A DNA stretch of 56,549 nucleotides from a virus. This document shows positions 2,784 through 56,549 of this stretch, one piece after another (positions within the stretch are counted from its first letter, which is position 1; each line of letters starts with the position of its first letter). The position numbers and the translations under genes are program-made. The stretch lies in IMG/VR virus record IMGVR_UViG_3300036846_000279, positions 1 through 56,549 of that record; one strand, written 5' to 3'. Below the pieces are notes generated by a model. It made no database searches, was not told the DNA's origin, and saw nothing but the letters and a program-made list of their open reading frames with translations.

Positions 2784-4190
2784 ATGGCTAAAGCGATTCC
2801 ATCGGCTGAACCTGGTATTGATATGAAGGCTCTATTCAAGAAGATTGAATTTGAGCCTCATAGTCCTGCTCAGTGGGAGTATTGTAGCTCACCTAGCCGG
2901 TTTAACATCCCTTGCTGTGGGCGTCGTTGGGGTAAATCGCAGGCAGCAGGTCATCGTATGACTTACAAGCTTTTCGTGCCTGACTCGTACAACTGGATTG
3001 TCGGTCCTACGTATAAGCTCGGTGAAAAAGAGTTCAGAGTTGTGTGGCATGACTTCAGGAAGCTCGACGTGCTGAAGTATTGTAAGAAGTCCTACTCAGC
3101 TAAGCAAGGCGATATGCGAATTGAAACCCCTTGGGGTGCTGTTCTCGAAGTTGTGAGTGCAGATAAACAGGATTCCCTCCTGGGTGAAGGACTCTCACAT
3201 GCGATTATGTCTGAGGCTGCTCGTCATCATCGCAGTACGTGGGAACAATTCATCGAGCCTGCTTTGTCTGATCTTCTCGGAACTTGCGATTTCCCCAGCA
3301 CCCCAAAGGGCTTCAATTGGTATCACGGCCTGTGGGATCTTGGACAAAGAGGGCTTGGAAATGATGGATCAACATATAAATCATGGCAATTCCCAAGCTG
3401 GACAAACCCAATTCGCTATGCTGGCGGGCTTGAGAATGATGAAATTAAGCGGATCAAATCCATCGTCAGCAAGCTTTGGTTCGATCAGGAGTACGGAGCT
3501 AGCTTTACTGCTCTTAGCGGCTCCATCTATGAAGAATGGTCCGACCAAATTCATGTTAAAAATCATGAATTTAACCCCAATTGGCCCAACTTCTTGGCCT
3601 TCGACTATGGATTCGCAAATCCATTTGTCTGTCTAGACATTCAGATCACACCATCAGACGACGTGATTGTATGGCGTGAATATTACGTCAGCTACAAGAC
3701 GAATTACGACCACGCTCAAACGTTGAGGGACCGTGACAATCCAGACGGTTATCGTATTGATGGTGCTTGGGGCGATCCTCGTGATCCAGATGCAGCGTTG
3801 ACTCTATCGACTATCCTTAACACGTATGTCGGTAGTCAAGATGTTCTGTGGGGCAACGGCGTTGAAGAAATTAAGCGTATGCTCAAGATCCCCAAGCTGT
3901 TTGTCTCGCCTCACTGTCCAAACCTCATCAGGCAGATGAGTCAGCTCCATGTTCGTGAGATTGCACACGCTACCTCGAATCTAAATGAAACAACGGGAGA
4001 CAGGAACATTCAACACAAGGTAGATGACCATGCTGCTGACGCTTTGCGTTACTTCATTGGTCCCTACTACGTGATGGGAGCTAACTCTCACCTGGAGGAT
4101 ATCTATGGACAGAACTATTACAAGTCAGAAAGCCATGATTTCTTCACGCTCAATTCAGGCATAACTTTGGATACCAGGGTAACGCTATGA
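2784..4190 (+). CDS. terL: Terminase large subunit
   Basis: This is the ATPase and nuclease that drives DNA into procapsids. Residues 46-52 (GRRWGKS) form a Walker A motif, E144 in IMSEAAR is the Walker B glutamate, and STPKG near 172 is the coupling motif. The C-terminal RNase H-like nuclease shows D274 (AFDYG), an acidic GDPRDPDA block near 335 and DDHAADALRY near 428. At 468 residues it is normal length. It starts four bases after the fibre stop and overlaps the portal start by an ATGA. Confidence 0.93.
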   Translation: MAKAIPSAEPGIDMKALFKKIEFEPHSPAQWEYCSSPSRFNIPCCGRRWGKSQAAGHRMTYKLFVPDSYNWIVGPTYKLGEKEFRVVWHDFRKLDVLKYCKKSYSAKQGDMRIETPWGAVLEVVSADKQDSLLGEGLSHAIMSEAARHHRSTWEQFIEPALSDLLGTCDFPSTPKGFNWYHGLWDLGQRGLGNDGSTYKSWQFPSWTNPIRYAGGLENDEIKRIKSIVSKLWFDQEYGASFTALSGSIYEEWSDQIHVKNHEFNPNWPNFLAFDYGFANPFVCLDIQITPSDDVIVWREYYVSYKTNYDHAQTLRDRDNPDGYRIDGAWGDPRDPDAALTLSTILNTYVGSQDVLWGNGVEEIKRMLKIPKLFVSPHCPNLIRQMSQLHVREIAHATSNLNETTGDRNIQHKVDDHAADALRYFIGPYYVMGANSHLEDIYGQNYYKSESHDFFTLNSGITLDTRVTL

Positions 4191-5782
4191 GTAACTGGTT
4201 CACAAGATTGATGGGCTTCCCTGAAAGGCCGCGCCCTGCACAACCAACACGTAACCTAGCTGTGCCGCCTACAACAGTTGCGCCTGCACAGCCCGCACAA
4301 GGTACTTCAGCTAGGAAAGCTACTGTTGGGACTTCATATACTGCTAAAGGCATGGCTGGTGTAGCGCCACCTTCGCTTGATACGGAGCTTGGTAGCTCCC
4401 AGCCAACAAGAATTATCGAGCAAGTACCGGATCTACTGCCAGGATATCCGAGACTTGTAACCTACAACGCAATGATGAATGATGCTGGCGTCGATGTTAG
4501 CATCAGGGCAGCTAAAACTCCTGTTCTTGGAGCTGAATTCTTCGTTGAAAGTTTCAGTGATGACCCCCAAGATCAGGAGATTGCTGAGTTTATCTGGGCA
4601 AATCTGGCTGAAGGAATGAGCGCACCGTTCCTAAACTCTCTTGAAGATATCCTACAGTTCTATACTGATGGATATTCTGTCCTTGAGAAGGTTTATGAGA
4701 TGCGTGAGTGGTCGCCCAGGCGTAGCAAGGCTAACACACGTCAGTATACGATGCTCCAGAAGCTCGGTTATCGTCCAGCAAGCACAATCCTCAGGATCGA
4801 CTACGACGATAACGGTGGTCCGCTCGATGTAGTGCAAAACGCGATTCAGGCAGACAACTCGATTACCGAAGAGACTTTGGATATCTCAAAGATCATCATC
4901 TTCACGTTCTCTAGGCGTGGTGGTGATCTAACTGGTCGTTCTCTGCTTCGCACCGCGTATCCACACTGGTATTACAAGACACACTTGTATAAAATTGATG
5001 CAATCCAGAAAGAACGCAACTCTCTCGGCATTCCGAAAGGTATGCTGAAACCGGGCTACACTCAGAACGACAAAGTGGCTCTGAGAACGTTGCTAAGCAA
5101 CTTGAGAAGCAACGAAGAATCGTTTATGATCCTCACGCCCAACATTGACGTTGAGTTTACTGAGGTAAAAGGCCAGCTAGCCAACGTTTTGGAGTCTGCT
5201 TCTCACCACAACATGATGATTCTCATGAATGTGTTGGGTCAGTTCCTTGGTTTGGGCATAGATCATGGTAGTGGTGGAGGCAAAAACACTGGTAGTACAC
5301 AAGCTGATTTGTTCATGAAGTCGCTCAGATACGTGGCAAATTATATCGCTGACTGCATTAACATGTATCTGATCCCTGAATTGGTCGTCTGGAACTACCC
5401 AACTACCAACTTCCCAAGGCTACAGGTGCGTAACGTTGGAGAAACTAAGGACATTCAGATGCTCGCAGCCGGCCTTGCTAATCTCGCAAGTCAAGGTCTG
5501 GTCACAATGGACTTCGAGACAGAGCAATGGGTTAGGCGCGCATTTGATATGCCTGCAAAGCAGACTGTTCCAGCCGAAGAAGCTGGTGAAGCTGGCGTCA
5601 ACGATACTCTACCACCAGGCGAAGTATTGCCAACACCAGGACAACCAGCTCAACCTCAGCCACCCGGTCCACCAAATAAGCCAACTCCACCAACACCAGG
5701 GAGTAATGGAAGTGGAAAAGGCTCAGTTCCAAACAGAGTCAGACCCGGGAATGTTGGCAAGTCGCCAACTTCGCCTAATTAA
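4187..5782 (+). CDS. Portal protein (DUF935 / Mu gp29-like)
   Basis: This 531-residue protein sits between terminase and protease, the usual place for the dodecameric portal. The GGDLTGRSLLRTAYPHWYYK segment followed by IQKERNSLGIP resembles the DUF935 portals. Residues 1-65 are Pro/Ala rich and probably disordered. The C-terminal 60 residues are again Pro/Gly rich. It starts at the ATGA overlap with terL. Confidence 0.85.
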   Translation: MSNWFTRLMGFPERPRPAQPTRNLAVPPTTVAPAQPAQGTSARKATVGTSYTAKGMAGVAPPSLDTELGSSQPTRIIEQVPDLLPGYPRLVTYNAMMNDAGVDVSIRAAKTPVLGAEFFVESFSDDPQDQEIAEFIWANLAEGMSAPFLNSLEDILQFYTDGYSVLEKVYEMREWSPRRSKANTRQYTMLQKLGYRPASTILRIDYDDNGGPLDVVQNAIQADNSITEETLDISKIIIFTFSRRGGDLTGRSLLRTAYPHWYYKTHLYKIDAIQKERNSLGIPKGMLKPGYTQNDKVALRTLLSNLRSNEESFMILTPNIDVEFTEVKGQLANVLESASHHNMMILMNVLGQFLGLGIDHGSGGGKNTGSTQADLFMKSLRYVANYIADCINMYLIPELVVWNYPTTNFPRLQVRNVGETKDIQMLAAGLANLASQGLVTMDFETEQWVRRAFDMPAKQTVPAEEAGEAGVNDTLPPGEVLPTPGQPAQPQPPGPPNKPTPPTPGSNGSGKGSVPNRVRPGNVGKSPTSPN

Positions 5783-26344: not shown

Positions 26345-28795
26345 TTAAGCTGCGATCTGTTCGTAATCGTTCAAGGTTCCCCAATCGTAACCAACTGACA
26401 GATCAGCTACATATGGAAAATCCCATTCTATAGCTTCTAGCGGTGTGTTTTCCATCTCAGACTTGATGAGATGCGCTACCTCGTCTACATGGCTTTCGCG
26501 ACAGTTCACTACGATGTTGTCGTGAACCGTGATACGTGGCTGAGCAATACGCCAGTCGAGCTTTTCTGCAATGTTGCATAGCGCCCAAAGAGTAATATTT
26601 GCCGCAATGTTTTGCGGCAAAAAGTTGATACCCTGCTTGACAACATGCAGTCTACCTCCTTCATCGGCGGGGATAACATAGAACCTACGCTTATGACCGA
26701 ACGGAGATTGTATCTCACCTTCAGTCATCACACGTTGTTCCATTTCCTTAGTCCACTCGTAAACCTTTGGGAATCGTGACCACCAAAAGTCAATGTATTC
26801 CTGCGCTTCACTCTGCGGCATGTAATACATTTGAGCAAACGAGAATGCTGACTGCCAATACGCTACACCGAAGTTGATGTTCTTAGCACGAACATACTGT
26901 TCATAGGTGTAGTTCTCACCATAGAATTGAGACGCTACCTCTCTATGTAGGGATCGTCCTGTGTCGGTGTATATTGCCTTAAGCTCGTCATCACCTGAGA
27001 GAACGGCGATGGTACGAAGCTCGGCTTGAGACAAGTCAGCAGAAAGAAAAACGCATCCTGAATCTGGAACAAAGGTACGCCGAATGTTTGGGAGTCCTTC
27101 TTTTGTTCTGGTGATGTTCTGGAGATTAGGTCTGCTTGAACTGAGACGACCTGACTCTGTGCCATGTATCTTAAAGTCAGTATAAATTCGTCCGTCTTTT
27201 CCACGACGAAGCACCATACCTTCCAGATATGTCCCCCGCTGTTTGTCAAGTTCTTTGAACTTGTCGAGCAGACTAATAAACTGGCCGATGGCTTCTCTGT
27301 CTACATTTCTAGTTGATCTGTAGTCATCACGAAGGATCTTCTCACGAACAGATTTATCAGTGGAACGCTTACCTTGATTCTCAATCCTCGGTCGCTTCAG
27401 GTTGTGAGTAATACCCCACGACTCATAGAGCAACAGTTCTAGTTGCTTAGGCGAATTGGGGTTGAGTTTTGGGTCCCCCGAGATTTCTTGCATACTGTGG
27501 CGCCACTCTTTGAGAGTAGGCCAAACTTCGCCTTCAAGGATATCGCAAGCTTGTTCGGCATCGTAAATGATTCCCTGAGCTTCAACCCTTGACAGGGCTT
27601 CGCTGAGTCGAATGAGTAGAGATTTATAGGGTCTATCCCAAACGCTGTCATTGATAGCCCTTTCTTTTAGAACGGGGAATAGTGCTCTAGTACCAGCACA
27701 GTCTTTCCCGTTGTATTCGTACAAATCAATACGACTGCGTAGATCGGGTAACTCACCAGTACGTTTGTAATGCCTCACTGACGCGGGTTCATACTTAGGC
27801 CAACCTAGCTCATCTTTCAGTAGCCATTCAAGTGAATGACCACCAGCGCCAGATTCAGGATCACCAGGACGTTCATCAAGACACCAGCTCAATAGCATAG
27901 AATCCTCATCTACGCGAGCTGCAATGTCAAAGTGCCTGAGAACCTTTACGTCATACTTCCCGTTATGCCATAGATATCTCAGACCTTCAATTGTAAGCAA
28001 CGGTTCTAGAAACTCTTGCCTGAAATCTTCATCTTGAACTACTGGTACACCAAAGACAACCGCGCGCTCGGGTCTAGTCGAAAACCCCACAGCAGTCATC
28101 CCTGTATAGAAACCCTCGATATCGCAAGAAACCAATCTTTCATCATCAGAGTAGAATGAACCGGCTTTAACAGAGAGTTGATCGTATATCTGCCTAGCCC
28201 AATCTCTAGCCTCGTCTAGCTTTTCTGTCCATCTAACCATAGGCATCTCAGGCTGCGGAAGAGGATTAATAGCCAGTCTGAAGTCACGTACTAACTCAGG
28301 GAAGTTACCATCATCACGCAACACAACGGCAGGGTTATTTGTAACGATGACTCGTTGAGTCTTGTCACTCATTGGACTGTCACGATAATGCACGTAACCG
28401 CGATTCCTGGCAACGTTGGGATCGCCTGTAACGGCCTTAGCCGCCTCACGACCAGCAGCTATAACAGTGGTAACCTCGGCAATCTCAGCCTCTAAGCGTG
28501 GCTCACAGCAAGCCTGAGCGAACGCAAAGCCTGACTCAGTACCGTCAGACTGACAGAGTACCACATTTGTAGCTATTACTTCATCTCGTGAAGTACCATG
28601 CAATTGCAGCAAATGGTCTAGTACCTTACCACTAGGACCACTAAACGACTTACCTGCCATAGACTCGTAATGCCCAGGACTACGAGACACCACAGCGATA
28701 GTAGCATCTTCAGGGCCAGTAGTTAGAGCTACTGGCTTATGTTTGAATGGGCATTGTTCGCATAGTGCGAACGGAGCCTTAGGCAGCTTTGACAA
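26345..28795 (-). CDS. Family A DNA polymerase with N-terminal UDG-like domain
   Basis: The N-terminal 180 residues resemble a family 4/5 uracil-DNA glycosylase: C-x2-C near residue 12, SRSPGHYESMAGKSFSGPSG, and TNVVLCQ. The usual C-terminal His motif reads NNPAVV, so glycosylase activity is doubtful. A 3'-5' exonuclease follows with all three motifs (CDIEG near 225, HNGKYDVK, YNGKD). The polymerase domain has motif A (DLSQAELR), motif B (RAKNINFGVAY) and motif C as VHDN near 758, in which the usual Glu of HDE is Asn. UDG-Pol fusions are known in SPO1-like phages. TTG at 28795 with GGAG upstream is preferred; an ATG at 28837 would overlap the kinase further. Confidence 0.88.
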   Translation of the reverse strand: MSKLPKAPFALCEQCPFKHKPVALTTGPEDATIAVVSRSPGHYESMAGKSFSGPSGKVLDHLLQLHGTSRDEVIATNVVLCQSDGTESGFAFAQACCEPRLEAEIAEVTTVIAAGREAAKAVTGDPNVARNRGYVHYRDSPMSDKTQRVIVTNNPAVVLRDDGNFPELVRDFRLAINPLPQPEMPMVRWTEKLDEARDWARQIYDQLSVKAGSFYSDDERLVSCDIEGFYTGMTAVGFSTRPERAVVFGVPVVQDEDFRQEFLEPLLTIEGLRYLWHNGKYDVKVLRHFDIAARVDEDSMLLSWCLDERPGDPESGAGGHSLEWLLKDELGWPKYEPASVRHYKRTGELPDLRSRIDLYEYNGKDCAGTRALFPVLKERAINDSVWDRPYKSLLIRLSEALSRVEAQGIIYDAEQACDILEGEVWPTLKEWRHSMQEISGDPKLNPNSPKQLELLLYESWGITHNLKRPRIENQGKRSTDKSVREKILRDDYRSTRNVDREAIGQFISLLDKFKELDKQRGTYLEGMVLRRGKDGRIYTDFKIHGTESGRLSSSRPNLQNITRTKEGLPNIRRTFVPDSGCVFLSADLSQAELRTIAVLSGDDELKAIYTDTGRSLHREVASQFYGENYTYEQYVRAKNINFGVAYWQSAFSFAQMYYMPQSEAQEYIDFWWSRFPKVYEWTKEMEQRVMTEGEIQSPFGHKRRFYVIPADEGGRLHVVKQGINFLPQNIAANITLWALCNIAEKLDWRIAQPRITVHDNIVVNCRESHVDEVAHLIKSEMENTPLEAIEWDFPYVADLSVGYDWGTLNDYEQIAA

Positions 28796-42480: not shown

Positions 42481-42502
42481 AATAAGCTCCTTGTTTACTG
42501 TG

Positions 42503-42585
42503 GGTGAGCTTGTTGAGTCTCAATCTACCCTCCCCAGAGAACTAGACTGAGACTCAACAAGCTCACCTAGTTAGACTAGGTGAGC
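42503..42585 (-). promoter_or_regulatory. Overlapping double hairpin (element F)
   Basis: A 20-bp perfect inverted repeat (42503-42522 with 42548-42567) shares GCTCACC at 42561-42567 with a second 10-bp hairpin (GCTCACCTAG with CTAGGTGAGC, 42561-42585). The two folds exclude each other. It fills the gap between the genes at 42605 and 42480. No U-tract. Confidence 0.8.
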
Positions 42586-42604
42586 CTGCTTAGTTGGCTT
42601 AACC

Positions 42605-45301: not shown

Positions 45302-45332
45302 TGTGGTCTTGCTAACTTCAGCTAATGCTAAA

Positions 45333-45390
45333 GTTAGTGGAACGGCTAGCGCCGCACAGAGAGCCGCTCCACTAACCCTAGTGGGTTAGC
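45333..45390 (-). promoter_or_regulatory. Overlapping double hairpin (element E)
   Basis: GTTAGTGGAACGGCT (45333-45347) pairs with AGCCGCTCCACTAAC (45362-45376, one mismatch). CTAACCC (45372-45378) also pairs with GGGTTAG (45383-45389) across a four-base loop. The stop codon of the membrane-protein gene at 45386-45571 is embedded in the second hairpin. Confidence 0.8.
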
Positions 45391-47326: not shown

Positions 47327-47427
47327 CCTGTGTTAGTTACAACACAGGATTGAGCCTAGCAACGAGCGATAGTCGGTATCCCCTCAGACACAACCCTCAA
47401 ACTTGCTGCTAGACTCAATTCTGTGTT
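47327..47427 (-). promoter_or_regulatory. Switch-like leader (element O)
   Basis: AACACAG at 47341-47347 can pair with CCTGTGTT (47327-47334) in a small hairpin, or with CTGTGTT at the outer end of a 21-base inverted repeat (47341-47361 with 47407-47427, three mismatches). On the minus strand the small hairpin lies directly in front of the AACGGGAGG site of the DUF6011 gene. Confidence 0.72.
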
Positions 47428-47430
47428 GCT

Positions 47431-47595: not shown

Positions 47596-47620
47596 GCTGT
47601 CCTCCTTTCGTTTTCAAGTT

Positions 47621-47766
47621 AGGTTAGTGAAGTAACAAGAGACAGGGTTCTTACGCTTACCGCCGCCCTGTATTCCTGCTGGCACAGGCAGACGCTTTAT
47701 TCTCTATCCTGCCAGAGATAAGAGTCTTTGTCGCCTCTTTATTAACTCCTGTTACTTCACTAACCT
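47621..47766 (-). ncRNA. Multi-helix structured element (element A)
   Basis: A perfect 17-bp inverted repeat (47621-47637 with 47750-47766) encloses about 110 bases. Inside, ACAGGG (47642-47647) pairs with CCCTGT (47666-47671), and TATTCTCT with AGAGATA is a third possible helix. No ORF is seen in the interior. It looks like a closed, multi-branched RNA between two small genes. Its end overlaps the stop of the upstream gene. Confidence 0.55.
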
Positions 47767-47903
47767 TACTTGTTGACCTGAGTTTTCCAAGCGTTGCGTT
47801 CTGACCTTTTCAAGTGCCGTCTTTCTTGTCTGCGACCCTTGCCAGAGTCACCATAGACACGACAGCAGCCATAAGAACATCTGACTGCTTTGTTACCTAG
47901 CAT
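47766..47903 (-). CDS. 45-residue basic Cys-rich protein
   Basis: ATG at 47903, with AACGGGAG 17 bases upstream. The peptide has CSYGCC near residue 9, and is otherwise Arg/Lys-rich (GRRQERRHLKRSERNAWK). Likely a small nucleic-acid-binding protein. Promoter 47951-47979 lies 50 bases upstream. Confidence 0.62.
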   Translation of the reverse strand: MLGNKAVRCSYGCCRVYGDSGKGRRQERRHLKRSERNAWKTQVNK

Positions 47904-47979: not shown

Positions 47980-48108
47980 GCAGGATTTACGATTTCCTTA
48001 CATCTTGGTTCCTGCGGATTCAGCGGTATGCTAATATCCATTCCTATACCGTGGCCCTATTTAACAAGACCTCCCACAGGTGTGATGCTTTGGTGATGTA
48101 AGTTAGAG

Positions 48109-48174
48109 TTGGTGAGATAGTAGGATGACTAGGGTAAGGGGGTCCTACTATCTCACTAACCCTAACCGGGTTAG
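48109..48174 (-). promoter_or_regulatory. Overlapping double hairpin (element D)
   Basis: A 17-bp inverted repeat (48109-48125 with 48143-48159, one mismatch) shares CTAACCC (48156-48162) with a second hairpin closed by GGGTTAG (48168-48174). The stop codon of the 32-residue membrane peptide is inside GGGTTAG, as in element E. Confidence 0.8.
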
Positions 48175-48271: not shown

Positions 48272-48571
48272 CTAATAAACAGTGCTTGCAGACTCAGGAG
48301 ATTCCTGAGCAGCTACCAGATTGAGCAGATAAGTCTCCTTGGGGAAACGCATCTTACTCATCTGAAGCTTCACCGGATCGTACTGGTAATTCTTACGTGC
48401 CCAACTTGAGTTAGGCTTGGCATACCTACATGCCGCGATATAGACACACGGCGTGAAGAGTAGCCAACCAAGAATTACCATAGTTGTCTTGCCTTTCTGA
48501 ACACCTACAACAGACGCCCAAATGAGCGTACCGAGATAGGCGAGCAGAAAGACTGCAACCGCTGCTCCCAT
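48272..48571 (-). CDS. Two-helix membrane protein
   Basis: The 99-residue protein starts after AAACGGGAGTTGACAATCT. Helices at about 4-23 and 31-48 are separated by a KGKTT loop; the remaining 50 residues are basic and soluble. Unknown role in the early region; superinfection exclusion is one possibility. Confidence 0.65.
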   Translation of the reverse strand: MGAAVAVFLLAYLGTLIWASVVGVQKGKTTMVILGWLLFTPCVYIAACRYAKPNSSWARKNYQYDPVKLQMSKMRFPKETYLLNLVAAQESPESASTVY

Positions 48572-48612
48572 AGATTGTCAACTCCCGTTTTGTGAGAACT
48601 TAACTTGAGCGG

Positions 48613-48765
48613 AACAATTCTTGTAATTGCTCCATAAGGCCAGTGGCTTATCCCTGGCTAATAGTGGACCAAGCGACAGTAGCGTTCCCTAGGCTACTAC
48701 TCTCATGCCCTTGAGTTAGCTTGGTTTTTGCCACTGACCTTATGCAGCAATTGATTTGTATTGTT
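48613..48765 (-). ncRNA. Long rod-like inverted repeat
   Basis: Bases 48613-48647 pair imperfectly with 48730-48765 (AATTGCT/AGCAATT, ATAAGG/CCTTAT, CAGTGGC/GCCACTG). Nested inside, ACCAAGC pairs with GCTTGGT and GTAGC with GCTAC. The fold is one long rod of about 150 bases with successive helices. There is no minus-strand ORF. It may be a structured RNA or a protein-binding DNA palindrome. Confidence 0.55.
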
Positions 48766-48777
48766 AACTCTCCCTCT

Positions 48778-48951
48778 ATGACGATGGCTTGTTTGGCTTG
48801 CAAGATGTTGCCCGCAGGTCATCTTCCAAATCTGCATCCACACATTGACATTCATTCGCTTTGGCCGCTTGAGGCTCTATTTCAGCCTGGCTGTTTGATT
48901 AGACACGATTGTGTCGCCATCAGCGTTTTTTATCACGGGTCTTCCGCCTAG
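48778..48951 (+). CDS. Possible small plus-strand ORF with C-x2-C
   Basis: A 57-codon ORF on the strand opposite to its neighbours reads TMACLACKMLPAGHLPNLHP..., with Cys and His that could bind zinc. There is no ribosome-binding site (upstream CTCTCCCTCT), and all nearby genes run the other way, so it may be chance. It is recorded because no minus-strand gene fills the stretch. Confidence 0.22.
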   Translation: MTMACLACKMLPAGHLPNLHPHIDIHSLWPLEALFQPGCLIRHDCVAISVFYHGSSA

Positions 48952-48991
48952 TCAGCGTTAGCTGTGTTGTGGAGGTACAAACGAGTTATTA

Positions 48992-49080
48992 GTTCGGGGG
49001 TTAGATCGTTCACTCAATTCGTGAGGATTGGAGAACGCTGCATAGACCTATTGGCCTAGCGTTGAAAATAACCCCCGAAC
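48992..49080 (-). promoter_or_regulatory. 12-bp stem with inner helix (element P)
   Basis: GTTCGGGGGTTA (48992-49003) pairs perfectly with TAACCCCCGAAC (49069-49080); inside, AACGCT (49034-49039) pairs with AGCGTT (49058-49063). No coding sequence. It adjoins element C, so 48.99-49.21 kb is a continuous structured tract. Confidence 0.6.
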
Positions 49081-49112
49081 CTTGTCACCTTTTCATTGTT
49101 GAACTGTGAAAA

Positions 49113-49207
49113 GGTTAGTGCAGGGTAGCTTACTCGCGCTAGGACGCTATTAACTTACCAGGTTACCTAGTTGAGACAACTACCCTGCACTAACCCTTTC
49201 GGGTTAG
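49113..49207 (-). promoter_or_regulatory. Overlapping double hairpin (element C)
   Basis: A perfect 16-bp inverted repeat (49113-49128 with 49180-49195) shares CTAACCC (49190-49196) with GGGTTAG (49201-49207). On the minus strand the small loop is GAAA. A third hairpin (ACTAGTT with AACTAGT) lies just beyond, before the stop of the gene at 49254. Confidence 0.8.
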
Positions 49208-49253
49208 CTTACTAGTTAGGCGCTGCGTTTAAAGCGCGTACAACTAGTCTTTG

Positions 49254-49400
49254 TTACTGATCGAGCCTTCCTTTGTCTTCACCATCACGAGCACCGGAAA
49301 CTTTGCACTTGCAAGTAGACCACTTGGAGTTCCAGCACTTAACGGAATGACCGTTCCGCAATTCCTTGCGGCGCCTGGCAATCCTTGCTTCAGTTGCCAT
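49254..49400 (-). CDS. 48-residue basic Cys protein
   Basis: ATG at 49400 behind AAAGGAGTTACGA. The N-terminal half is a basic helix (ATEARIARRRKELRNGHSV); C-W-N-S...CKC follows. Nucleic-acid binding is likely. Structured elements flank it on both sides. Confidence 0.6.
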   Translation of the reverse strand: MATEARIARRRKELRNGHSVKCWNSKWSTCKCKVSGARDGEDKGRLDQ

Positions 49401-49557
49401 TCGTAACTCCTTTCTTAAGTTATTGAGCTAAGTTGCGAATGTGCGTTTCCCTAGCAAGTCTAGGTCAGGCCGCACCCCCTGGTATCCCCGTTTGGTTAGG
49501 GGACAACCGCTCCTAATAACATGGTGTCTTAGCCATTGAGACATAGCGCCATAAGCG

Positions 49558-49665
49558 TTACCTCGTTAGCCGTTCCAGATCCATTCGTCTGGCCTCAGTT
49601 AGTAGGTAGTTGTCAGTTTTGTTTGCCCGCTCAGAGTCATACTGAGTCAAGTCACAGACTTGCAT
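49558..49665 (-). CDS. Possible 35-residue helical peptide
   Basis: ATG at 49665 gives MQVCDLTQYDSERANKTDNY followed by a basic amphipathic helix (LLTEARRMDLERLTR). The composition looks protein-like, but the ribosome-binding site is weak (GTGAGC). It would account for part of the 49.4-49.75 kb gap. The 49401-49557 stretch downstream holds only short hairpins. Confidence 0.4.
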   Translation of the reverse strand: MQVCDLTQYDSERANKTDNYLLTEARRMDLERLTR

Positions 49666-49745
49666 CGCTCACAGTTTAGATGTGATTACGAATCTGCCGC
49701 TATCATACCGCATAGCTACCGGGCATTGTGTTAACTCTTGGAAGA

Positions 49746-49827
49746 GTTAGTGAGCAGTCAGAGCTACTTTCCCCGGCGATCAACCCGGCGAGATTCAGTT
49801 GACTGCTCACTAACCCTTCCGGGTTAG
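49746..49827 (-). promoter_or_regulatory. Overlapping double hairpin (element B)
   Basis: A perfect 15-bp inverted repeat (49746-49760 with 49800-49814) shares CTAACCC (49810-49816) with GGGTTAG (49821-49827). The enclosed loop has its own GCCGGG-rich segment. It follows the gene at 49853 on the minus strand. Confidence 0.8.
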
Positions 49828-50583: not shown

Positions 50584-50626
50584 ATTGTTGACCATCCTTT
50601 TCTATTTCACTCTTTAACTTGCAAGA

Positions 50627-50676
50627 GTTAGTAAGTAACTAACTTAGTTAGTTACTTACTAACCCTTGCGGGTTAG
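50627..50676 (-). promoter_or_regulatory. Overlapping double hairpin (element G)
   Basis: GTTAGTAAGTAACTAACT (50627-50644) pairs with 50646-50663, giving a nearly loop-less palindrome. CTAACCC (50659-50665) also pairs with GGGTTAG (50670-50676) over a four-base loop. Confidence 0.8.
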
Positions 50677-51035: not shown

Positions 51036-51435
51036 TTATTTCACCTCCTTCGGTGAATTTAGGTTGTTTGTTGCTTGGTCTTGCTTGGTAAAGCCAATGT
51101 AGCACAGCGGCTTTTCCATGGAATCACCCGAAAGGGGGATTTCATGCAAAAGCGGCTTATCGCTGAAAACTCCCGAAAATCCCTGAAAATCGTTTACAAA
51201 GAAAGTTCCTGGTTTTGTAGTAGTATCTTAGGTGTAGTAGGTATTAAGTAGTTAAGGAATATTCCTTAATTCCTTAAAGGATTAGTGGGGGCTGCAAGGG
51301 TAAAGCCTACTATTGTAAGCTTTCTTGACAACAGACCCGAACAGACGTTCTACCTACTTGCCTGGTTCCTGGGTTTTCCGTGCTTTCTTACTGACCCCAC
51401 CTTAGCAGACTCAGGGGCTTTTGTCAAGTCTTGGG
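51036..51435 (-). other. 400-base non-coding leader region
   Basis: No ORF is supported here. At 51060-51145 there is a hairpin resembling the double-hairpin family with TGC-TACATT (51096-51101). A perfect 18-base palindrome, TTAAGGAATATTCCTTAA, lies at 51252-51269, with a partial copy (TTCCTTAAAGG) directly after. A promoter lies at 51399. The region could be a long leader, a regulator-binding site or a replication origin; nothing decides between them. Confidence 0.5.
51399..51427 (-). promoter_or_regulatory. Extended -10 promoter
   Basis: Minus strand TTGACA (51422-51427), 17-base spacer, TGC-TAAGGT (51399-51404). It directly follows the zinc-ribbon gene and would give the 51035 gene a leader of about 350 bases. 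Confidence 0.65.
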
Positions 51436-51669
51436 CTAAATAAGCCCAAGACTTGCCAGAAGTCTCTGATCCCCCTTCTTTTTGTTGGTAGCCTTGGTTT
51501 TCTGGACTTGGTAGCAATCCTCGCATTGTCTGCGGGACTGACCAAGACTGTTGAACCGCGCGACGAGAAATTCCGTCTCGCAATCCTTGGTTGAACAAAC
51601 AAGGATACCCACCTTGTTGTTCTTCATCTTCTGCGCCTTGACTTCAGGCCGCATTGATGTTTTGGCCAT
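51436..51669 (-). CDS. Small zinc-ribbon protein
   Basis: The 77-residue protein starts behind GGAGGAAGGAAAACAGAG. Zinc ribbon: CSTKDCETEF then CEDC. The rest is basic (KTKATNKKKGDQR). Of the overlapping frames in this stretch this one has the ribosome-binding site and motif. Confidence 0.7.
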   Translation of the reverse strand: MAKTSMRPEVKAQKMKNNKVGILVCSTKDCETEFLVARFNSLGQSRRQCEDCYQVQKTKATNKKKGDQRLLASLGLI

Positions 51670-51703
51670 CTCTGTTTTCCTTCCTCCGTTCTTTGTCTTG
51701 CTT

Positions 51704-51759
51704 GGTGATACCTACAAGGTAGCACTTGTCTACCTTCTAGGTATCACCCGTTAGGGTGA
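51704..51759 (-). promoter_or_regulatory. Overlapping double hairpin with -10 (element J)
   Basis: A 19-bp inverted repeat (51704-51722 with 51730-51748, one mismatch) shares TCACCC (51744-51749) with GGGTGA (51754-51759). On the minus strand TGC-TACCTT lies in the loop and right arm, so the element may be terminator for the gene at 51762 and promoter for the one at 51669. Confidence 0.78.
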
Positions 51760-51761
51760 TC

Positions 51762-51899
51762 TTAGTACCACTGGTGGGTTTCGATATCCTCCAGCGTCGT
51801 ACCCATATCTTCCAGCATGAAGAGCAACTCTTCCTCATTGTCTGCAAGACCTTCGTTGAGCAACTCGGCGATGAGTTGATCTTTGCGGGACTTGGTCAT
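51762..51899 (-). CDS. 45-residue acidic helical protein
   Basis: ATG at 51899 behind GAAAGGAAAACTCAG. MTKSRKDQLIAELLNEGLAD followed by EEELLFMLEDMGTTLEDIE suggests two short helices. Small proteins of this type are common in actinophage early regions. Function unknown. Confidence 0.6.
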   Translation of the reverse strand: MTKSRKDQLIAELLNEGLADNEEELLFMLEDMGTTLEDIETHQWY

Positions 51900-51934
51900 C
51901 TGAGTTTTCCTTTCTGTGTTCTCTTGCTTGACTT

Positions 51935-51990
51935 GGTGATACTCACAGTCTAGCACTTGGTTAGACTCTGAGTATCACCCTTTCGGGTGA
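51935..51990 (-). promoter_or_regulatory. Overlapping double hairpin with -10 (element I)
   Basis: An 18-bp inverted repeat (51935-51952 with 51962-51979, one mismatch) shares TCACCC (51975-51980) with GGGTGA (51985-51990). On the minus strand TGC-TAGACT sits in the loop and right arm, about 50 bases before the gene at 51899. Confidence 0.78.
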
Positions 51991-54376: not shown

Positions 54377-54775
54377 ATGGATCCAATAACATCACCTGCA
54401 TATCAGATTGTCCCAGGATTGCCTGTCAATATCGACATTTCTGCGTACTCAGGTGATACTTGGAGCCAGAAGTTCAGACTTAAATCTGGATCACCACCAA
54501 TCACTTTTGATCTAACTCCATACACCATAATCTGCTGGATTGAGAGTGGATACAACGACGAAAGCTACGAACTTACTACCACCATTCTCGATCAGACAGA
54601 TTCCACGTCAGACACATTTGGCTGCTTTATCCTTAGTCTGCCCTCGGATATGTCACCATATCCCCCACCGGCTAACTATGCCTACGATTTAAAGCTAAGT
54701 GATGGCAATACACCACCCATAATCACCACTTGGCTAGCAGGCAGATTCTTCCTAAACCAGGATATAAGTGGCTAA
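54377..54775 (+). CDS. Beta-sandwich fibre-associated protein
   Basis: From ATG 54377 the protein has 132 residues with the pattern YSGDTWSQKFRLKSG...PPITFDLTPYTI...PPANYAYDLKLSDG...GRFFLNQDISG, typical of small beta-sandwich proteins encoded before phage fibres. The 40 codons upstream to the TAA at 54254 are open and read like protein (KLDPGLTNKLTIEIINPITL), while the ATG has no ribosome-binding site. A longer product made by stop read-through or an unusual start is therefore possible. Confidence 0.68.
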   Translation: MDPITSPAYQIVPGLPVNIDISAYSGDTWSQKFRLKSGSPPITFDLTPYTIICWIESGYNDESYELTTTILDQTDSTSDTFGCFILSLPSDMSPYPPPANYAYDLKLSDGNTPPIITTWLAGRFFLNQDISG

Positions 54776-54899
54776 AACCACCGTAGTTTACGCCTCTGAT
54801 GGCACCATTGAGATTTCGGCTCCTTCAAATCCGAATATCCCACCCTACCCTGTGGTGGTTTTGGACACAAGTGGCGCGATTTCCGTAAGTGATACATAG
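54768..54899 (+). CDS. 43-residue fibre-associated protein, copy B
   Basis: The GTG start overlaps the stop of the beta-sandwich gene (AAGTGGCTAA). It is identical to copy A for 39 residues (VAKTTVVYASDGTIEISAPS...). Conservation of the ORF in both copies supports it being translated. Confidence 0.6.
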   Translation: MAKTTVVYASDGTIEISAPSNPNIPPYPVVVLDTSGAISVSDT

Positions 54900-54909
54900 A
54901 AACCCCCGG

Positions 54910-54967
54910 TAATTATATTGGGCTTGTAGGTGCTTGGGCCGCCCGCCCTACAAGCCCAACATAATTA
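54910..54967. terminator. 21-bp stem-loop before fibre B
   Basis: Identical to 253-310. It separates the small ORF from fibre B. Preservation without change while flanking sequence differs suggests selection or recent duplication. Confidence 0.6.
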
Positions 54968-55002
54968 TAAACTAACCAACTAATACACTCCCTCAGCCCC
55001 AG

Positions 55003-56549
55003 ATGACTCAACACGTAGTAATTGATCCAGCAACCGCCGTCCGCGTAGGGGATACTACGCCGTCAGATTCGCTTGGCGAAGATACCGACTTGTATGTCGA
55101 TGATGCCACTGGTATCTGGTATGAGCGTCAAGGTGGAGTATATGTAGCCTTACCTGGTGGCGGTGGTGGTGCAGCAGGTCCACCTGGCCCAACTGGTCCA
55201 GCAGGTCCACAAGGTCCACCTGGTCCAACAGGACCAGCATCTACAGTACCAGGCCCAGCAGGTCCAACTGGTCCACAAGGTGCAACTGGTGCAACTGGTG
55301 CAGCCTCTACAGTACCAGGTCCACAAGGTCCCAAAGGTGATACAGGTGCGACAGGTGCAGCATCTACAATACCAGGCCCACCTGGCGCAACAGGCCCACA
55401 AGGTGCAACAGGAGCAACAGGACCTCAAGGACCAATAGGTAATACGGGCGCGACAGGCGCCACAGGTGTACAAGGCCCTAAAGGTGATACTGGCGCAACG
55501 GGTGCTACTGGTGCTGATTCAACCGTACCAGGTCCTCCAGGTGCTACTGGTGCTACAGGTGCTACAGGCCCACAAGGCCCGATAGGTAATACAGGCCCAA
55601 CAGGCCCACAAGGAAATCCCGGTGCAACTGGTTCACAAGGACCAGCAGGTAGTACAGGTGCAACAGGACCAGCAGGCCCAGGAGTACCCACAGGTGGTAC
55701 AGCAGGTCAGATACTAAGCAAGTTAAGCAGTACTGACTATGCTACTCAGTGGGTTACTGAGGCAAAGATCCTCAACGGTACACTTGCTGCCAGACCTGGC
55801 GCGGGTACTGTTCCTATTCAAACACTGTACTACGCTACCGATCAAGATATCGGTTACGTCAGCGATGGTGTCTCGGTTTGGACTCCTGTTATCTATGGTA
55901 TACCGGCTGGTGGCACAGCGGGCCAGGTACTAAGTAAGAACTCACCCACCAGTTTTGACGCTGGTTGGTCTACACCTACTGCTGGTGGCGGTGGCCTAAC
56001 ATACAAAGGCGATTGGGTAGCAGGCAGCTACAACGATGGCGATATTGTTGTCTACAACGGCATAGCGTACGTCGCAGATAAGGCAACATCTGCTACGCCC
56101 GTTCCCTGGCAACAAGCAGGCGGCGCAACTATTCCTGTTACGGTACTTCCTGCTACGCCATATGATGGTCAGCCGGTAACACTTGTCGATAACTTGACAA
56201 CACCCACATACTCTTGGGGATTTGTATGGAGTGCCTCTGCTGCTAAATGGATATTTACAGGTGGAGCGCCGCTTATCGTGGAAGTGACGACAAACGAGAC
56301 TCGCTCGGGTACTGGTACTTTCGGCGATCTGGCTACGGTCGGTCCAACATTCACAACTCCGCGAGCCGGTGATTGGATTGTGGGTTGTGGTTGCGACTCA
56401 CAGATCAATGCAACGGCACAAAATGCTTTCGGTATTTCTTTTGCGGGCGCAGTACCAGTTTTGAATACACCTTTTTCTGCTACGATTGACCACAGAACAA
56501 CTGGACAGGTAATGACCGGATCACTTGCGCCACATAAGAAAGTTGCGTT
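55003..56549 (+). CDS. Collagen-like tail fibre, copy B (partial)
   Basis: The ORF starts at ATG 55003 and runs off the window after 515 codons. Its head (residues 1-50) matches fibre A, then collagen-like Gly-X-Y repeats run from about 55 to 225, without the 53-175 insert of fibre A. The GTLAARP...[18 protein letters not shown] module follows, then [20 protein letters not shown], resembling a carbohydrate-binding (CBM5/12-like) motif absent from fibre A. Two fibres with different tips would broaden receptor use. Confidence 0.83.

Follow-up and report, generated by a model that had tools for sequence, protein, structure and literature searches.

The window considered here comprises all 56,549 bases of virus record IMGVR_UViG_3300036846_000279, a soil phage genome whose late genes lie on the plus strand (including that for the terminase large subunit, 2784-4190) and whose replication and accessory genes lie on the minus strand (including that for DNA polymerase, 26345-28795). 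The phage also encodes a recombination endonuclease VII and a transglycosylase-like domain (Pfam PF06737), the latter presumably a hint of a host among the Actinobacteria; no RNA-processing enzyme was found among the 30 phage proteins scanned against Pfam. The two ends of the contig, 1-1721 and 54758-55995, resemble each other (96% over 148 b, then 66-80%); being imperfect, this is not an exact terminal repeat, and its left copy, on the 1-1721 side, is tail-fibre coding.

The tract of interest is one intergenic gap of a minus-strand early/accessory operon extending over 41-53.5 kb, between the cistrons for a 48-aa protein (upstream) and a hydrophobic 99-aa protein (downstream) that is likely a membrane protein. 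It holds three intercistronic RNA elements, E6, E5 and E4, listed in Table 1 with the other features of the region. All three structures reported by the first-pass annotation are present: a rod at 48613-48765, a three-way junction at 48992-49080 and a double hairpin at 49108-49207. They are built on the inverted repeats I1 (48625-48661/48716-48752), I12 (48992-49003/49069-49080) and I2 (49108-49135/49173-49200). Fold z-scores were taken against 100 dinucleotide shuffles for each strand; on the minus strand all three elements are far more stable than the shuffled sequences. The same annotation had found no supported gene here, and this stands: tblastn against relatives detects no protein homology in the tract, and its lone plus-strand ORF has no match at E<=0.01 in the relatives compared, unlike the flanking minus-strand genes, which do have tblastn matches. 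The 48-aa protein and its homologue have RRRKELR-GHSVKCW in common, as judged by eye.

Table 1. Features of the tract and of the surrounding accessory region; fold z-scores are given with the interval scored where this differs from the feature
Feature	Position	Strand	Fold z	Remarks
E8, simple hairpin	50615-50676	-	-8.6	after 111-aa gene; same family as tract elements
E7	49740-49827	-	-7.5	after 164-aa gene; same family as tract elements
Neighbouring non-coding RNA candidate	49467-49621	-		conserved in G005 (L052 6142-6271, +); compensatory changes CCAGA/TCTGG vs CCATG/CATGG
48-aa gene	49254-49400	-		upstream of tract; carries RRRKELRNGHSVKCW motif; L074 6587-6763 encodes a homologue, behind which lies a different RNA element
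E6 SL1, short hairpin	49190-49207	-		CTAACCC-GAAA-GGGTTAG in RNA sense; five copies in window; covaried copy CTAGCCC/GGGCTAG in G001
E6 SL2, long hairpin	49108-49200	-	-7.8 (49087-49210); plus strand -6.1	23-bp P1 GGGTTAGTGCAGGGTAG..CTACCCTGCACTAACC enclosing 51-nt core
E5, three-way junction	48992-49080	-	-5.4 (48986-49086); plus strand -4.7	closed by perfect 12-bp P1
Spacer between E4 and E5	48771-48985 (215 bases)		-1.6	ordinary structure; no gene support
Plus-strand ORF	48778-48951	+		unsupported; listed as 48721-48951 from TTG
E4, rod	48613-48765	-	-7.2 (48605-48770); plus strand -4.9	inner 15 bp serve as P1 (GCATAAGGTCAGTGGC/GCCACTGGCCTTATGG)
99-aa hydrophobic protein gene	48272-48571	-		downstream of tract; 60% identical homologue in G001
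E3, hairpin	48102-48174	-	-7.4	after 99-aa gene; same family as tract elements
E2, long element	47615-47772	-		core AAGAGGCGACAAAG..CGTCTGC, directly inside P1, in common with G008 (L057 89-230)
Further element	47340-47428	-		2 nt past stop of 54-aa gene
E1, hairpin	45328-45389	-		same family; stop codon of gene above at its foot
E9, two hairpins with common arm	42501-42594	-		10 nt past a stop codon

No nucleotide match to the region exists in the named phage or plasmid collections, and queries with the 164-aa protein, a 223-aa protein and the exact hairpin end recovered no relatives from viral contigs. The DNA polymerase, used as query, did find relatives in viral contigs (their polymerases being 43-66% identical), and the syntenic accessory regions of these polymerase-bearing relatives formed the comparison set. 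The species genomes scanned in search of a host contained no relative of the polymerase.

In the double hairpin E6, the 3' arm of the short hairpin SL1 doubles as the foot of the long hairpin SL2, so that one fold can preclude the other; SL2 starts 53 nt past the stop codon of the 48-aa gene. E6 and four other elements of the window have in common on the minus strand the anatomy CTAACCC-GNNA-GGGTTAG (with a loop variant in two), the second arm of which also opens a long hairpin GGGTTAGTG..CACTAAC. Past this common foot the stem sequences differ and pairing is kept: 98.5% of cells are paired, both sides have changed in 11 of 17 pairs, and 0 of 500 shuffles reach this, though these closing-helix statistics are partly circular, inverted repeats having been the means of finding the elements. 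The length of the closing helix, P1, has a median of 23 bp in the class, and is likewise 23 bp in E6, 15 bp for the inner P1 of E4 and 12-13 bp in E5. An integron attC site was also considered for these ends and rejected, as GCTAACCC..GGGTTAGTG breaks the RYYY of the attC core RYYYAAC/GTTRRRY.

The tract is not unique in the genome. Minus-strand folding is strong throughout 41-53.5 kb (mean z -1.92, vs -0.38 in the late genes), and inverted repeats scoring at least 15 number nine there, two in 0-24 kb and none in 24-41 kb, with about 0 in Markov controls; dozens more such elements occur in the relatives recovered with the DNA polymerase. The flagged tract is a typical rather than the best example of a general phenomenon. 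Among neighbouring features, the non-coding RNA candidate at 49467-49621 (minus strand) has a constant CGAATGGA loop and a possible pseudoknot, AGGCC/GGCCT. Three more hairpins lie at 51411-51979, with four antisense wobbles and no sense wobble among few pairs, and perhaps belong to a plus-strand transcript. The best promoter-like site of the region (47979-47951, minus strand; TTGACA-17-TACACT, with TG ahead of the second hexamer) follows E3.

Placement was tabulated, using a simple gene caller, for 51 elements from the accessory regions of both the window and its relatives. Only five of the 51 overlap coding sequence over more than half their length (57% expected), 19 start no more than 60 nt past a stop codon (12% expected), and about 20 end some 14-61 nt ahead of the next start. 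In contig L079 an element stands at nearly every gene boundary, spanning the distance from stop codon to ribosome-binding site. Within the tract, E5 sits between E6 and E4, and E4 ends 41 nt ahead of the start of the 99-aa gene. As to strand, the G-U wobbles, an independent test in which the scoring is strand-symmetric, fall 50:23 on the coding strand vs the opposite one (p=0.002), and 23 vs 14 in further loci; this bias indicates that it is as RNA, transcribed in the sense of the operon, that the structures are maintained. Together with the minus-strand fold scores, the bias bears out the first-pass reading of the tract as structured RNA.

The class that emerges, which is well supported and typical of this phage clade, has a small, often multibranched core enclosed by a closing helix P1 that is near-perfect and free in sequence, and its members usually lie between one stop codon and the following start. 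In a set of 47 elements, 22 P1 arms contain CTAGC (2.4 expected), 16 contain CTAGT (1.5) and 13 contain TAGTG (1.6). Chains of elements at L079 6349-6612 and L046 1616-1899 have arms that can each pair with the left or the right neighbour (A-A'-A-A'), and may represent an alternating fold.

Cores were compared by the 24-nt stretches immediately inside each P1 arm, over 59 elements (1711 pairs), against shuffled scores. Five pairs beat every shuffled score: three join members of a first core, one joins the two copies of a second, and the fifth matches E2 to the element at L057 89 (G008). The first core (family R1) is found at L071 6425-6575, L045 19141-19282 and L074 6762-6947, and a covariance model made from these three phages found it in a fourth, G002 (L046 1691-1811, E=2e-12); the core is truly conserved, under unrelated P1 stems. 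The pattern of the family, CCTAACTCAGCCGGATAA..GCTGTAAC.AATG.CGGTGATG with variable P1, is thus present in four phages and has no counterpart in Rfam within the scans made; the relatives hold at least one new conserved RNA family. The second core, GATGAAGTCC-stem-CGGAACGC-stem-GG-hairpin-GCTGCGACTCTC, occurs at L041 6614-6731 (minus strand) and L079 7693-7807.

Recurrence of the cores in the tract itself is less firmly indicated. E5 has its junction sequences TTTCAACGCTA and TATGCAG in common with L052 5357-5475 of phage G005; TTTCAACGCTA lies flush with P1, the collinear TATGCAG falls outside the score, and 0.45 chance pairs are expected. A covariance model of this pair (R2) matched its own two seed sequences alone, MAFFT left the TATGCAG motif unaligned, and an 18-base E5 pattern occurs in 33 contigs of the viral collection, about the estimated chance number; the closing helix is found in the G005 relative only, a result that to some extent repeats the way the pair was identified. 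With this single partner, sequence comparison suggests with moderate strength that the E5 core recurs. For E4 the possible partner is L071 7295-7513, with AAAACCA and CAGGGATAA flush with P1 (0.15 chance pairs expected), again a single match and a weak indication of recurrence. No relative of the E6 or E7 core turned up among the 1900 inverted repeats compared, and a search with the E2 pattern in viral and genome contigs behaved like that with the E5 pattern.

The same gene boundary is occupied by different elements in different phages. The 48-aa gene is followed by E6 in the window and by the first core, overlapping the stop codon, in L074. The gap between the 111-aa and 164-aa genes contains E8 and a small ORF in the window, the first core alone in L071, and the first core with two more elements in L045; downstream of the 111-aa gene stand the E5-like element in G005 and three elements in a chain in L079. 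The gene boundaries are therefore slots with changing RNA content, and the order of genes and elements alike is shuffled between phages.

Known RNA families do not account for the elements of the window. Rfam gave no match above its gathering threshold there, the only matches at E<=5 being chance-like ones to eukaryotic miRNAs, and ARAGORN found no tRNA gene in the window. A tRNA or tRNA-like identity for the flagged elements was dropped: strict scans give acceptor plus T-arm patterns in relatives and none in the window. At 49615-49735 the minus strand takes a degenerate cloverleaf-like fold, in which the loop TTCGTAA resembles that of an anticodon arm and the acceptor is TGCCCG/CGGGCA; ARAGORN does not call it a tRNA. 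Odd tRNA-like RNAs do occur in the relatives (L045 4231-4277 and 15679-15741, minus strand; L052 5522-5658; L057 671-740; L041 ~4735-4795, minus strand); they have the acceptor and T-arm, with the other arms absent or enlarged, and the smallest measures 46-47 nt. In the element at L042 13607-13762 the core finishes with a canonical tRNA T-arm (GTGGGTTCAAATCCCAC), which gives its P1 the look of an extended acceptor stem. One relative carries a tmRNA gene (L052 15383-15676; Rfam RF00023, E 5e-29).

The explanation we propose, and to which we give about an even chance, is that the elements punctuate the polycistronic phage mRNA, for processing or for protection. We infer a minus-strand transcript that would carry long duplexes between its cistrons; the long P1 would either be cut by a host double-strand RNase of the RNase III type or block exonucleases, and the flanking cistrons would thereby become separate mRNAs of differing stability, with the structured core capping or shielding their ends or else being released. 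A P1 of free sequence and preserved length fits selection by a double-strand-specific RNase or the need for a stable plug. Bacterial RNase III needs about 20 bp, and the class median of 23 bp is near that length. The P1 helices of E5 and E4 fall below such a full substrate, so the model fits E6 best, and these short helices are the weakest point of the cleavage version. The "cluster of phage small RNAs" suggested at first pass is compatible with the data, since some cores recur between phages, their release as separate RNAs being putative. Extended to the clade, that reading would make of it a shuffled library of small structured RNAs, excised by host RNase III from sequence-free stems in polycistronic mRNA and acting in trans, for instance to counter host defence or at the ribosome; we put this forward tentatively, and doubt it more than we believe it.

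Several other roles were weighed against punctuation of the mRNA by processing or protection. Transcription terminators, alone or joined to promoters in the manner of the promoter early stem-loops discussed below, could insulate small transcription units, and would account for elements that sit just past stop codons and for hairpins with common ends that recur at gene boundaries; there is one good promoter after E3 (47979-47951), and in G005 TTGACA-17-TAAACT can be seen by eye past a hairpin at 4814-4894. We consider this rather unlikely, because no T run stands behind the hairpins and a terminator scan lists none at E1-E8, because the loops of most elements (17-104 nt) are unlike those of the short G+C-rich hairpin type, and because promoter-like sites are not enriched over 42-53.5 kb (8 vs 11.9 expected, none of them in the tract); the conserved cores would in any case be superfluous for termination. 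It is unlikely, too, that the elements only shield mRNA ends from exonucleases, as REP-like 3' blocks or as 5' blocks against RNase J, and are themselves uncut. Very stable coding-strand stems between cistrons and branched cores are what such shields would call for, but by itself shielding leaves the sequence conservation of the cores, and their swapping between positions, unexplained; the intergenic stem-loops of the cip-cel operon both stabilise processed ends and serve as cleavage signals (PMC10311766).

Action of the elements as DNA, whether as cruciforms, as points of cassette recombination or as parts of an origin or packaging site, would suit the shuffled order of genes and elements and the phage's own endonuclease VII, but the wobble bias of the coding strand points to RNA and we hold a DNA role to be very unlikely. 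The first-pass alternative of a replication or packaging locus is likewise not supported: the tract has neither iterons nor a GC-skew turning point, the terminase lies near the left end of the contig, and elements of the same kind are scattered along more than 8 kb, at the ends of genes. Those elements adjacent to starts might instead be riboswitch-like cis-regulators gating the ribosome-binding site of the next gene, as E4 might for the 99-aa gene, given its distance from that start and the many elements that end 14-55 nt ahead of one. A variable P1 with a conserved junction is the usual riboswitch pattern, and in E6-type elements SL1 and SL2 are in competition for a single arm. Against this, a P1 of about 20 bp is too stable for switching, one and the same core is found ahead of different genes, and E6 and E5 are far from any start, so that we regard such regulation as highly improbable.

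Punctuation of the mRNA by such elements has partial counterparts among known systems. The early mRNA of T7, about 7,000 nt long, is cut by RNase III at five sites (PMC4858673), which like the present elements are double-stranded RNA signals on the sense strand between cistrons of a phage polycistronic mRNA; the present elements, unlike those of T7, often enclose branched cores with conserved sequence and are several times more numerous, their cleavage being putative. Six intergenic regions of the Ruminiclostridium cellulolyticum cip-cel operon have stem-loops that act as cleavage signals and stabilisers of processed ends (PMC10311766); this is a bacterial operon with simple stem-loops, and the available part of the account describes no swapping of cores between genomes. 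The promoter early stem-loops (PeSLs) of T4-type phages are repeated stem-loops among small accessory genes subject to intense gene shuffling (PMC4503421), and a stem-loop between shuffled small genes is seen here as well; they differ from most elements here, which have no promoter behind them and no terminator features, and have conserved branched cores instead.

GOLLD and ROOL are phage-associated RNAs. They are large, conserved and structured, belonging to the ornate non-coding RNAs, and cryo-EM structures are given for them (PMC12286853); they are far larger single families, and neither matches here in Rfam. Mycobacteriophages D29 and L5 have highly expressed intergenic non-coding RNAs without canonical terminators (PMC5712189), for which the accessible section of that paper reports no repeated closing-stem design.

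Hairpins between phage genes are already known. A clade that has, at nearly every accessory gene boundary, a long sequence-free stem with a different and partly conserved RNA core was not found in the literature searched. If confirmed, the elements would represent several new RNA families, and the pairing of a variable excision or capping stem with a conserved core would provide a simple design rule for finding phage non-coding RNAs in metagenomes. They would also connect RNA processing, in a way that can be tested, with the modular shuffling that small phage genes undergo; and if the possibility of a trans-acting RNA library proved true, that library would be a non-coding counterpart of phages' small accessory proteins.
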